Source of the DNA: Bdellovibrio bacteriovorus HD100
GTDB taxonomy: Bacteria > Bdellovibrionota > Bdellovibrionia > Bdellovibrionales > Bdellovibrionaceae
DNA: 64,000 bases
Assembly (NCBI RefSeq): GCF_000196175.1
Contig: NC_005363.1
Span: 1,612,001 to 1,676,000, forward strand
Direction of reading: 5' to 3'
Part shown: piece after piece, positions 3,053 through 58,556 of the stretch
Numbering within the stretch: position 1 is the first letter of the stretch
How the letters are laid out: each line of letters starts with the position of its first letter
Made by a program: the position numbers and the translations under genes
The notes under the pieces: model-generated
Seen by the model: the letters and a program-made list of their open reading frames with translations, nothing else
Databases searched by the model: none
Told to the model about the DNA's origin: nothing

Positions 3053-4036
3053 TTGTCGAAAAAAGTTCTTGTTACTGGCGCTGACGGATTTATTGGGTCT
3101 CATTTAACGGAGTTATTGGTTAGTGAAGGGTACAGTGTTAGGGCTCTTGTTAACTATAATTCGTTTAATTCCTGGGGCTGGCTGGATTCATCGGCGGTGA
3201 GAAGCGATATTGAGGTCGTATCCGGAGACATTCGTGATCCGTTTTTGTGTCGAGATATTACGAAAGGTATGGATGCGATTTTTCATTTGGCTGCCTTGAT
3301 AGCGATTCCTTACTCATACGTTGCCCCACAGAGTTACGTTGAGACAAATGTCACGGGTACTTTAAATATTTGCAAAGCTGCCTTGGACAATGGGGTTGCC
3401 AAAGTTGTGCATACTTCTACGAGTGAAGTATACGGAACTGCGCAGTATGTTCCAATAGATGAGAAGCATCCTTTGCAACCACAGTCCCCGTATAGTGCAT
3501 CCAAGATAGCCTCTGATGCTATGGCAATGAGTTTCTTCAATTCATTTGGATTGCCGTTGACTATAGCGCGTCCATTCAACACGTACGGTCCTCGCCAATC
3601 CGCTAGGGCAGTGATTCCTACAATCATCGCTCAAATTGCTTCGGGAAAAAAAGAAATTAGCATAGGGGATATGACACCCACTAGGGATTTCAATTACGTT
3701 ACCGACACATGTAGGGGATTTTTGGCTTTGGCGGCTAACTCCAATTGTATTGGAAAGACAGTGAACATTGGATCGAATTATGAAATTTCCATCAAGGATA
3801 CATTGGAGTTAATTAAGGGGATCATGGGATCAAATATCTCGATTCAATATGATAGCCATAGAGTTAGACCTAAAAATTCCGAAGTTCATAGATTATGGTG
3901 TGATAATACTTTGATTAATTCTCTTACTGGATTTAGCCCATTAGTTAACATCGAGCAGGGACTGAGAATGACGGTGGATTGGTTTAGTCAACGAGAGAAT
4001 CTGGCAAAATATAAGGCAGATGTCTATAATGTTTAG
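3053..4036 (+). CDS. legB: NDP-sugar 4,6-dehydratase, legionaminic-acid pathway (LegB type)
   Basis: An extended short-chain dehydrogenase of 327 residues starting with TTG behind aggag. The Rossmann motif TGADGFIGSHL lies at residues 7-17. The catalytic threonine region HTSTSEVYGTA and the YSASK motif are present around residues 122-151. LegB makes the 4-keto-6-deoxy intermediate from UDP- or GDP-GlcNAc in the first dedicated step of legionaminic acid synthesis. The C-terminus overlaps legC by 17 bp, and the downstream genes complete the pathway. A GDP-sugar substrate is suggested by the PtmE-like gene further down, which is inference. Confidence 0.88.
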   Translation: MSKKVLVTGADGFIGSHLTELLVSEGYSVRALVNYNSFNSWGWLDSSAVRSDIEVVSGDIRDPFLCRDITKGMDAIFHLAALIAIPYSYVAPQSYVETNVTGTLNICKAALDNGVAKVVHTSTSEVYGTAQYVPIDEKHPLQPQSPYSASKIASDAMAMSFFNSFGLPLTIARPFNTYGPRQSARAVIPTIIAQIASGKKEISIGDMTPTRDFNYVTDTCRGFLALAANSNCIGKTVNIGSNYEISIKDTLELIKGIMGSNISIQYDSHRVRPKNSEVHRLWCDNTLINSLTGFSPLVNIEQGLRMTVDWFSQRENLAKYKADVYNV

Positions 4037-54982: not shown

Positions 54983-55743
54983 TGTCTCATCCATTCAAAG
55001 CCTGCCACGGCCGCGGTAACGCCGACATTCAAGGAGTTTTTGCGCCCGCGCAAGGGGATGATGCGGACTTCGTCGATGATCTTTAAAACTTCCGGATCAA
55101 GGCCGAAGCGTTCATTCCCCAAAACAAAGGCGGTAGGTTCGGATTCAAATTTTTCAAACAGATCTGAAGCGCTGGCTGCGGTCTCTAAGGCGACAATACG
55201 GTAGCCTTCGTCCTTCAGCTCTTCCAGGCACTCTAAAAGTTTCGGAGCCTCTTCCCAAGCAAGGTATTCTTGAGTCCCCATGGCGGTCTTTTCGACTTTC
55301 CATTGGGTCGGAAGCGGGGTGTAGCCGCAAAGATAAATCTTTTCAGCCCCCAGGCACTCGGCGGTGCGGAAGATGGATCCTACATTGAAGGCAGAGCGGA
55401 TGTTGTCCAGAACAAATACCAACGGCAATTTGCTTTCAGCTTGTTCGCGGTCGTTTTCAACCACCAAGAATTCATCGTCCTGCAGGTTTTTATGTAAAAG
55501 GCGCTCAAAAGGTATGGCATAGCTGACGAAATGTTTCAGCGTCATGCCCGGGGTCAGGTGTTTTTCCAAGGGCGCCAGACGGGAAACATCAGGATTCTCA
55601 CAAACAGACAAAGCCGAAATTAGAGTTTTCAGTTTTTTTAGTTCTGCCTCGGAAAAAGAAAAATCCCCCGAGGATTTCTCCAGCTTCAGAAAAAGCTGAT
55701 GGATTTCTTCGAGGGATTTTTTATCCTGAATGGAAAGATTCAT
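54967..55743 (-). CDS. SpoU/TrmH-family RNA 2'-O-methyltransferase
   Basis: 258 residues. The SPOUT domain motifs are LDNIRSAFNVGSIFRTAECLG (motif 1, about residues 112-132), VLGNERFGLDPEV (motif 2, near 210-222) and IPLRGRKNSLNVGVTAAVAGFEW (motif 3, near 230-252), together forming the knotted SAM site. The N-terminal ~100 residues are a helical extension. It methylates ribose in tRNA or rRNA; the site is unknown. The start overlaps the metG stop by one base. Confidence 0.9.
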   Translation of the reverse strand: MNLSIQDKKSLEEIHQLFLKLEKSSGDFSFSEAELKKLKTLISALSVCENPDVSRLAPLEKHLTPGMTLKHFVSYAIPFERLLHKNLQDDEFLVVENDREQAESKLPLVFVLDNIRSAFNVGSIFRTAECLGAEKIYLCGYTPLPTQWKVEKTAMGTQEYLAWEEAPKLLECLEELKDEGYRIVALETAASASDLFEKFESEPTAFVLGNERFGLDPEVLKIIDEVRIIPLRGRKNSLNVGVTAAVAGFEWMRQWRLK

Positions 55744-57806
55744 TATTTTACTCTCTGGCCGACCTGGGCTCCGTCATCCGCCGAAAGCACGAACAGATCG
55801 CTGCCACCAGTTCCTGCCGCCAACACCATGCCTTCAGACATGCCGAACTTCATTTTGCGTGGTTTCAAGTTTACACAAACCAGCACTTTGCGACCCACCA
55901 GTTGTTCTGGTTTATAAGCCGCTTTGATGCCGGAAATGATCTGGCGGATCTGGCCTTCGCCGATGTCGATCTTAAGACGCAAAAGTTTGTCAGCTTCCTT
56001 GATTTCTTCAGCTTCAATGACCTGACCGATACGCAGATCCACTTTGTCAAAATCAGCAAATTCGATTTCAGCCGGGCGATCGCCCGCTGTCGCAGCTGCA
56101 GCAGGGGCCGGAGCCGCCGCTGGTTTTGCGGTGGAAGCCGCTTTTTTCGCCGCTTGAATCTCTTCGTTGATCTTACGACCTTCCTCGACCATGGCTTTGA
56201 CTTTGTCAGCCTCAATACGGGTTGCCAGATGTTCATAGTCATTGATTTCACGGTTGGTAAGAACCGTGTTCAGATCAGACCACACATAGTCTTTTTCACC
56301 CAAAAGTTTTGCCACCTTTTGGCTATAGAATGGCAAGACCGGCTTCAGGTAAATCGCAAGCATTCGGAACATGTTCAGAGTGGTGGTGATAACCTGCTTG
56401 GTGCCTTCTGGATCAGCTTCCAGGGTTTTCCAAGGAGCTTTTTCGTCAAAGTACTTATTGGCGTCATCAGCCAGGCCACGGATTTCACCCAATGCTTTGG
56501 CAAAGTCGCGGGCTTCATAATGAGCGGCGATGGATTCAGCCGTTTTTTGAGCGTGCTCAATCAGTTTTTTGCCTTCAGCATCCGGCACGCTCATTTTGCC
56601 GTCCATTTTCTTTTTCAGCATCTGGCCACCACGGGAACCCAGATTTGTGATTTTACCCACAAGCTCGGAATTCACACGGTTGGTGAAGTCTTCCAGATTT
56701 AAATCGATATCGTCCACAGAGCTCGACAGCTTGGTGGAATAGTAATAACGAAGATATTCCGGGTTCAGATGGTTCAGATACGTTCTTGCGGCGATGAACG
56801 TCCCTTTGGACTTGGACATTTTCTCGCCATTAACCATCAAGTGACCGTGCACGAACACCTGATTAGGCGAGCGGAATTCCGCAGCCTTCAGGAATGCCGG
56901 CCAGAAGATGGTGTGGAAGCGGGCAATGTCTTTGCCAATGAAATGATAAATTTCACGGCTTGGGTCCTGCCAGATGTCTTTCAGGGTTTTGCCCTGGGAT
57001 TTCGCCCATTGCTCGGTGGTGGACATGTAGCCCATGGGAGCATCCACCCACACATAGAAGAATTTTTTATTGTTGGTGCCCGGAATCGCGAAGCCGAAAT
57101 AAGGCTCATCACGGGAAATATCCAGATCCTTCAGGTCCTCGTTGAACCATTCCAGCATCTTTTTGGAGATTTCAGGGGAGCAGTGTTTAGGGATCCATTC
57201 TTCCAGGTACTGTTTGAAGTCGTTCAGTTTGAAGAAGATGCTCTCGGAATCTTTCATCACCGGAGCTGTCCCGCAAAGCGAACAGTGAACGTCCTTCATG
57301 TCGCTCGGGGAGTAAGTCGAAGCACACACATCACAGGAATCACCGTACTGTTCCTTGGCGCCGCACTTAGGACAGGTGCCCTTTACGAAGCGGTCCGGCA
57401 GGAACATTTTGTCGTGATTACAGTACATCTGCTGAATCGGCTGGCTGCGGGTGTGGTTGCCTTCCTGCATTTTTTTGTAGAAGTACTCACAAAGCAGGCG
57501 GTTTTCTTCCGAATTGGTGGAACCAAAGTGCGAGAACTGAACCTGGAAATCAGCAAAGTCCTGGGTGTGTTCTTTATAGCTTTGTGCGATCAAAGCTTCC
57601 GGAGTGATGCCCAGTTCGCGGGCTTTCACCATGATCGGGGTGCCGTGAGTGTCATCTGCGCAAATGAAGACGCATTCGTTGCCACGCATATTCTGAAAAC
57701 GGGCCCAGAAGTCGGCCTGAAGATATTCCACCAGGTGACCCAGGTGAATGTATCCGTTTGCGTAGGGAAGAGCACAGGTGATCAGAATCTTGCGTTTGTC
57801 GTTCAT
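55743..57806 (-). CDS. metG: Methionyl-tRNA synthetase
   Basis: 687 residues. The class I HIGH motif appears as YIHLGHLVEY near residues 19-28, the zinc-binding CPKCGAKEQYGDSCDVC near 145-161, and KMSKSKG near 330. The C-terminal anticodon-binding region is followed by an Ala/Pro-rich linker (about residues 558-578) and a tRNA-binding OB domain (DFDKVDLRIGQVIEAEEI to the end), as in dimeric MetRS. It is the first gene of a metG-SpoU-trmO unit on the minus strand and starts right after the upstream lipoprotein gene. Confidence 0.97.
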   Translation of the reverse strand: MNDKRKILITCALPYANGYIHLGHLVEYLQADFWARFQNMRGNECVFICADDTHGTPIMVKARELGITPEALIAQSYKEHTQDFADFQVQFSHFGSTNSEENRLLCEYFYKKMQEGNHTRSQPIQQMYCNHDKMFLPDRFVKGTCPKCGAKEQYGDSCDVCASTYSPSDMKDVHCSLCGTAPVMKDSESIFFKLNDFKQYLEEWIPKHCSPEISKKMLEWFNEDLKDLDISRDEPYFGFAIPGTNNKKFFYVWVDAPMGYMSTTEQWAKSQGKTLKDIWQDPSREIYHFIGKDIARFHTIFWPAFLKAAEFRSPNQVFVHGHLMVNGEKMSKSKGTFIAARTYLNHLNPEYLRYYYSTKLSSSVDDIDLNLEDFTNRVNSELVGKITNLGSRGGQMLKKKMDGKMSVPDAEGKKLIEHAQKTAESIAAHYEARDFAKALGEIRGLADDANKYFDEKAPWKTLEADPEGTKQVITTTLNMFRMLAIYLKPVLPFYSQKVAKLLGEKDYVWSDLNTVLTNREINDYEHLATRIEADKVKAMVEEGRKINEEIQAAKKAASTAKPAAAPAPAAAATAGDRPAEIEFADFDKVDLRIGQVIEAEEIKEADKLLRLKIDIGEGQIRQIISGIKAAYKPEQLVGRKVLVCVNLKPRKMKFGMSEGMVLAAGTGGSDLFVLSADDGAQVGQRVK

Positions 57807-58556
57807 TTATCGAAACTCCACATTTCCAGCTTCCAGATGGTAGACAGCCTTCACTATCTTTACATCACCCGAGGTCACAGCGTCACGCAGGATTGCGGAG
57901 CGTTCTAGCAGTTCATTGGCAAGGCCTTCCGCAGCTGTCAGATCACCGCAAGAGTCCGAGCCCATGATCACCACCAGATTGGTGCCCAAAGTGCCTACAG
58001 AATACTCAAGACTTTCCTGAACATTTTTGTCCAGAATCAGCTCACCGGTGCGAACCACATAGATTTCACCCAATTTCTGGTCAAATACGATTTCAGGCGA
58101 AACACGGGAATCGCTGCAGGTGTAGATTGCCGAATGGGGGCGCTGCAAAGCGCTTACGCGGCGGCGGTCAGCAGCCGAGGCGCCGTCATTACGGAAGGTG
58201 CCGCGCACAAAACGGGTGTTGCCGTTTTTAAGCCAGCCAAATGCTTTTTCTGCAGGCACTGGTCCGGCTTCGCGGGGAGCTTTGCCATGAGTGTCTTGAA
58301 TATGTTGAGCAGCAGCGGCAACGGCCTCTTTCACTTCCGTGGCGTGGGCTTGTGCTTCAGCATCGCTGCCAACCTCAACGCGGGTCATTTCTTTTTCGCC
58401 GCCGGTGCTGGTGGCTTGAGCCGGGGCTTCTTTAACACCGCCTTTGCCGTCTTTCAGGGTCACTTTCGTTTCCTGATTTGGTTCGCGATGGCTGGTGAAA
58501 GATGCGCAGGCTGTAAGGTTCAGAGCAAGAAGCCCGATAATGAGATTGGTTTGCAT
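57807..58556 (-). CDS. Beta-carbonic-anhydrase-like lipoprotein lacking the zinc His
   Basis: 249 residues from ATG 58556, which has ggagg upstream. A lipoprotein signal (LNLTAC, Cys near residue 17) is followed by a low-complexity acidic/Ala-rich linker (to about residue 100) and a beta-carbonic-anhydrase domain. The first zinc Cys and its Asp-Arg pair are kept in YTCSDSRVSPE near residues 138-148. The second site reads GSDSCGD where the family has GHxxCG, so the His ligand is replaced by Ser. Loss of normal CO2 hydration is likely. An envelope location for this family is unusual. Confidence 0.82.
   Translation of the reverse strand: MQTNLIIGLLALNLTACASFTSHREPNQETKVTLKDGKGGVKEAPAQATSTGGEKEMTRVEVGSDAEAQAHATEVKEAVAAAAQHIQDTHGKAPREAGPVPAEKAFGWLKNGNTRFVRGTFRNDGASAADRRRVSALQRPHSAIYTCSDSRVSPEIVFDQKLGEIYVVRTGELILDKNVQESLEYSVGTLGTNLVVIMGSDSCGDLTAAEGLANELLERSAILRDAVTSGDVKIVKAVYHLEAGNVEFR

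Follow-up and report, generated by a model that had tools for sequence, protein, structure and literature searches.

The window analysed here, a stretch of 64,000 nucleotides at positions 1612001-1676000 of the Bdellovibrio bacteriovorus HD100 genome (a single contig of 3,782,950 bases), contains beside metG a gene for a lipoprotein that resembles a beta-carbonic anhydrase (beta-CA) and has a serine where the zinc-binding histidine should be. The locus raises the question of whether such a protein can still be an enzyme and, if it is not, what has kept it. The favoured answer, held with somewhat better than even confidence, is that it is a selected pseudoenzyme: a beta-CA-derived envelope lipoprotein kept for a non-catalytic role.

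The gene and its product

The features considered are the following, in coordinates of the window.
57807..58556, minus strand: coding sequence of the zinc-less beta-CA-like lipoprotein, 249 amino acids (open reading frame and profile match)
58506..58556, minus strand: lipoprotein signal peptide and lipobox, residues 1-17, with Cys17 (lipobox pattern)
58266..58505, minus strand: linker, residues 18-97 (80 residues), predicted helix at 65-89 (model and selection)
57810..58265, minus strand: beta-CA-fold core, residues 98-249 (profile and predicted structure)
58104..58118, minus strand: CSDSR, residues 147-151, first zinc Cys position and Asp-Arg dyad
57945..57962, minus strand: GSDSCG, residues 199-204, zinc His replaced by Ser, second Cys kept
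57927..57935, minus strand: approximate site of the missing helical region of about 45 residues, around residues 208-210 (comparison with full-length orthologs)
57856..57886, minus strand: DNA element GTGACG-N17-GTAAARAT in the 3' end of the coding sequence, candidate metG promoter (synonymous-site conservation)
55743..57806, minus strand: metG, ATG directly after the lipoprotein stop codon
58684..59658, plus strand: ilvE-like aminotransferase, divergent syntenic neighbour (named by reading of the sequence)

The lipobox of the HD100 protein is LTAC (residues 14-17), within a stretch that classes as a lipoprotein signal peptide, and every one of the 21 distinct genus rows at this locus (L002, L004-L023) shows the lipobox pattern. 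Pfam PF00484 (Pro_CA) matches the protein with 73.5 bits, the cut-off being 25.7, and the best stretch spanning just profile positions 3-71 of 156; the cut-off of the NF011765 / PRK15219 subfamily is missed (72.8 bits vs 221). The core fold is predicted with confidence by AlphaFold, with pLDDT values of 92-98 except for one ten-residue block at 88 (blocks counted from residue 101 on), and the model aligns with Mycobacterium tuberculosis Rv3588c (2a5v_D) over 152 residues with a Z of 21.4 and an rmsd of 1.4. The preliminary description of this gene had proposed a lipid-anchored protein with a beta-CA fold, an 80-residue linker, a preserved CxDxR and second cysteine, and GHxxCG turned into GSDSCG; the open reading frame, the profile match and the model bear out the fold, the lipobox, the linker and the motifs.

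Loss of the zinc histidine

The Asp-Arg dyad of CxDxR is intact in the HD100 protein (D149, R151). A C-S-C set stands in place of Cys-His-Cys in all four genomes of the clade, so that the zinc ligands are incomplete throughout it. The Ser200 codon is TCG (57959-57957), from which CAT or CAC is unreachable by any single base change. Three of the clade genomes have TCG and the fourth has TCT; this fourth member of the zinc-less clade is strain kdesi of B. bacteriovorus, which was the nearest relative with a name among those found. Ser200 is thus real and kept. A read error, which had already been thought no simple explanation on the grounds of the codon, is ruled out by the shared serine and the synonymous codon difference.

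Loss of the helical region

A further lesion had escaped the preliminary description: some 45 residues of a helical region that follows GSDSCG are gone, the deletion falling, in alignment with relatives, between this motif and the C-terminal 'ERSAILRD'. The segment from GHxxCG to 'ERS' has 13 residues in the HD100 protein, and the helical region is not found there. Among 129 rows scored (L056, L107, L110 and L111, being partial or remnant, were left out before the motif counts), 116 have Cys-His-Cys, and the segment takes up 42-66 residues in 113 of these and 16 in the other three; in the 13 rows without Cys-His-Cys it has 9-27 residues in eight and 56-59 in five. In the model of the ligand-intact ortholog L011 the missing part is helical (105-114, 122-138, 145-165), and the HD100 model has a helix at 206-219. 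Since both the ligand set and the helical region are incomplete, the HD100 protein is, by the available tests, a beta-CA homolog and not a carbonic anhydrase.

The three short Cys-His-Cys rows, L007, L008 and L009, have the helical deletion with all zinc ligands kept, and may be intermediates or a distinct small beta-CA. Because of them, the deletion by itself is no proof of inactivity.

Repeated ligand loss at one locus

The lipoprotein gene lies between the divergent ilvE-like gene and metG throughout the genus and in many other family members. Among whole-genome rows, a zinc ligand is lost in 10 of 37 at this locus, vs one of the 47 beta-CA rows that the same genomes have at other loci, the latter count leaving out loci L115 and later. 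A locus was taken as syntenic when metG or ilvE was matched within its sequence stretch, and one whose flanks are short may therefore have been put in the wrong group. The sole exception elsewhere, L024, is the same kind of lipoprotein from another family of the order, with no metG or ilvE match in its sequenced flanks. A further zinc-less row, L152, comes from a named collection. This homolog lies at 3585-3980 in a Bdellovibrionales bin (ALOHA), with what looks by eye like the start of a class IV aminotransferase directly after it.

The ligand patterns differ by lineage (C-S-C, C-Y-C, S-N-gap, G-H-S, S-H-S, P-T-C and S-N-S), and the helical deletion often accompanies the ligand loss in the other lineages at this locus. 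The Asp and Arg of SDSR persist in all 12 zinc-less Bdellovibrionota rows. In L018 all zinc ligands are present and Gln replaces the dyad Arg, and L179 (in a record named Methyloceanibacter), outside the Bdellovibrionota group, has neither the first Cys nor the Arg. The preliminary reading stood as to fold, histidine loss, lipobox and conserved serine; it was incomplete, since other lineages have also lost ligands here.

Several independent losses across the family are likely. The zinc state must have changed at least seven times on the tree of metG+ilvE, with 38 rows scored, and at least five times on the beta-CA core tree (49 rows), which was built without the motif and deletion columns; L152 and L179 are absent from both trees. 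The deletion changes differ by tree, with five on metG+ilvE vs three on the core tree, where all nine deletion rows of the genus group together in a single unstarred clade (85/90). Inside the genus there may have been a single ancestral loss of the zinc site, since AU tests on metG+ilvE reject neither a single clade of the six genus zinc-less rows (p 0.256) nor one of the nine genus deletion rows (p 0.061).

The gene is not present everywhere. In G004 no lipoprotein gene lies between ilvE and metG (L208, G004:C1), about 190 bases separating the neighbours, and in G035 (L111, G035:C22, about 1800-1960) just the last 40-50 codons are left between them. The role of the lipoprotein is therefore not universal. 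In G021, a single-contig genome that is 99% complete, neither the lipoprotein gene nor an ilvE or metG of this type was matched; all three being absent together, most likely through a missing stretch, it was not counted as a gene loss.

Selection on the zinc-less protein

Selection within the zinc-less clade is strongly purifying: dN/dS is 0.033-0.039 in three close, unsaturated pairs and 0.063-0.075 in the three pairs with kdesi, the latter values being rough, with dS above 1 and near saturation. The linker has no nonsynonymous change in the three close pairs and is under purifying selection as in the core. Its 80 residues had been regarded as an oddity; they are present as described, and the selection on them argues against filler. 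Between the HD100 protein and kdesi there are 34 replacements, of which three (V157I, I197L, M198L) fall within residues 143-212. This region, which spans the remodelled site, has w about 0.029 and is the most strongly constrained, so that the site is being held and is not drifting. Fisher's test gives p 0.007 for it, a post hoc value, since the region was picked after the replacements had been viewed. Catalytic residues are lost and the protein is kept by selection, as expected of a pseudoenzyme, and its inactivity would follow from the ligands and helices lost.

Proposed role and the fate of the site

The repeated ligand loss at the locus, the purifying selection, the retained Asp-Arg pair and the confident fold together argue for the selected pseudoenzyme. 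Its ancestor would have been an exported, probably active beta-CA whose gene stood next to metG. The HD100 clade would have lost the zinc site by the change of His to Ser, along with the helices C-terminal to it, while the beta-CA scaffold would have been kept together with its Asp-Arg pair, both cysteines that once held zinc, and a pocket in remodelled form. A lipid anchor and the 80-residue linker would hold the protein in the envelope, on the periplasmic side, as a non-catalytic dimer, most likely binding a protein or a small anion at the remodelled face, and the two cysteines may form a disulfide that replaces zinc in the oxidising periplasm. We infer that such a protein carries no zinc and does not hydrate CO2; its envelope role is probably binding or scaffolding.

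A bolder version is rather doubtful: an exported beta-CA would have turned non-catalytic at least five times independently at one Bdellovibrio-group locus, its role having been binding or structural from the start, and in the clade of the window a disulfide would have replaced zinc while the pocket was reshaped to take a different ligand.

Because both cysteines and the Asp persist, the protein may still bind some metal. An altered metal site, formed by Cys147, Cys203, Asp149 and perhaps Asp201 or Asp206, with a weak or different hydrolytic activity, is the strongest of the alternatives, though an unlikely one. The retained Arg, the location of the most constrained part of the core at this site in the comparison with kdesi, and L012, whose C-x-C pattern matches with Tyr for His, are all in its favour. 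Six other zinc-less rows (L017, L024, L029, L042, L105, L152) have no core cysteine, however, and the loop after Arg169 has changed as well as the helices after the motif. In plant betaCA1, moreover, mutating either zinc Cys cut activity from 2 WAU to below 0.05, according to PMC7463553.

The cysteines suggest another role, in which the freed pair would act as a thiol-disulfide redox switch. The 12 zinc-less rows have two core cysteines or none, never one. The HD100 clade and L012 have the pair, as does L043, where one cysteine sits at a new position; the six rows just named have none. The absence of a lone thiol would fit an oxidising periplasm and permit a disulfide where the pair is kept. 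Pairing may, however, merely avoid a lone thiol, and a switch cannot be the shared function since half of the rows have no cysteines, which makes this reading improbable.

A DNA element in the 3' end and a possible metG promoter

Part of the conservation of the gene concerns its DNA. In a synonymous-identity scan of 16 thinned genus rows, the excess peaks at codons 219-232, with a z of 4.0 in the best windows among 231 overlapping ones, and the Val232 codon is GTA in all 16. Over the last 40 codons, synonymous changes number 1/38 for L002/L004, 1/38 for L008/L009 and 5/38 for L022/L023; in the first 20 codons of metG, synonymous change is low in the HD100-clade and L022/L023 pairs and not in L008/L009. 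All 20 genus rows have GTAAA, and 19 of the 20 also have GTGACG 17 bases earlier (L020 differs). In HD100 the element lies some 50 bases ahead of the start of metG, a position that makes a metG promoter plausible; the assignment draws only on conservation and position, as a scan for the sigma-70 consensus gave no hit there. The exact pattern occurs once in the genome, and allowing one mismatch yields no more matches than a reversed control does, which gives no sign of a regulon. Rfam has nothing in the gene region. The element also differs from the attack-phase promoters described in PMC3627812, whose motif, TTAAG-N16-CCGATA, resembles that of FliA.

Such an element could mean that the reading frame persists mainly as cis-regulatory DNA for metG, the protein being dispensable. 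The lipoprotein stop codon abuts the metG ATG in the HD100 clade, and the G035 remnant retains both the GTGACG and GTAAA parts with the rest of the gene gone. Synonymous conservation is limited to about the last 40 codons, however, and the whole protein, linker included, has a dN/dS near 0.03 in close pairs, so the chance that DNA is the main reason for persistence is slight. A gene decaying under relaxed selection, as the G035 remnant, the G004 absence and the several lineages without ligands and helices might suggest, is disfavoured still more by dN/dS values as low as those of ligand-intact pairs (0.033 in L008/L009, 0.058 in L022/L023) and by the intact frame and lipobox.

Other carbonic anhydrases in the genus

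The only other beta-CA found in the HD100 genome, L001, is intact, of a different type and likely cytosolic, as it has no lipobox match. No alpha-CA was found in the 14 of 14 genus genomes searched, and of the six genus genomes with a zinc-less protein, just G014 (L036) and G015 (L053) showed a further beta-CA match apart from the L001-like type. No second exported carbonic anhydrase was thus found that would explain the loss, and the idea that one offsets it is unsupported. An inactive subunit assembling with an active carbonic anhydrase would have precedent in pseudoenzymes that regulate active paralogs (PMC5201418), but with L001 as the only other beta-CA found in the genome it is highly improbable. 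In G005, an L001-like match with two internal stops (G005:C1:2402572-2402943) may be broken, frameshifted or matched beyond its start.

Pseudoenzymes are common; among the papers that literature searches listed, none was described for the beta class and nothing on this protein was found under Bdellovibrio and carbonic anhydrase. The word 'carbonic' is absent from the main texts of PMC12546842 and PMC2797640. For the selected pseudoenzyme, the intact, half-dismantled and zinc-less orthologs at one locus offer a natural series on non-catalytic beta-CA roles in the envelope of a predator that serves as a laboratory model, and the candidate metG element inside the coding sequence is a testable case of a pseudoenzyme gene carrying control DNA of its neighbour.

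Comparison with known systems

Rv3588c (1ym3, 2a5v) is the best solved relative by sequence (E 4.7e-25) and also by fold (2a5v, Z 21.4). In Rv3588c H-x-x-C is intact and is followed by a longer region than in the HD100 protein; it is not known to have a lipoprotein linker. Closer to HD100 is L011, from the same locus as L116 (Bdellovibrio sp. RX1_metabat.bin.37), which shares the locus, lipobox, linker and core at 63% identity and differs in its intact CSDSR and GHESCG and its 58-residue helical segment. The carbonyl sulfide (COS) hydrolase of Thiobacillus (3vqj/3vrk), a zinc enzyme, shows the beta-CA fold serving another function, with a Z of 15.9 to the HD100 model. The animal CA-related proteins VIII, X and XI belong to the alpha class, whose fold is unrelated to that of the beta class. 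They are catalytically silent members of a carbonic anhydrase family, as the HD100 protein would likewise be, and CA-related protein VIII also lacks a zinc His, according to PMC6609565 and PMC13253706.
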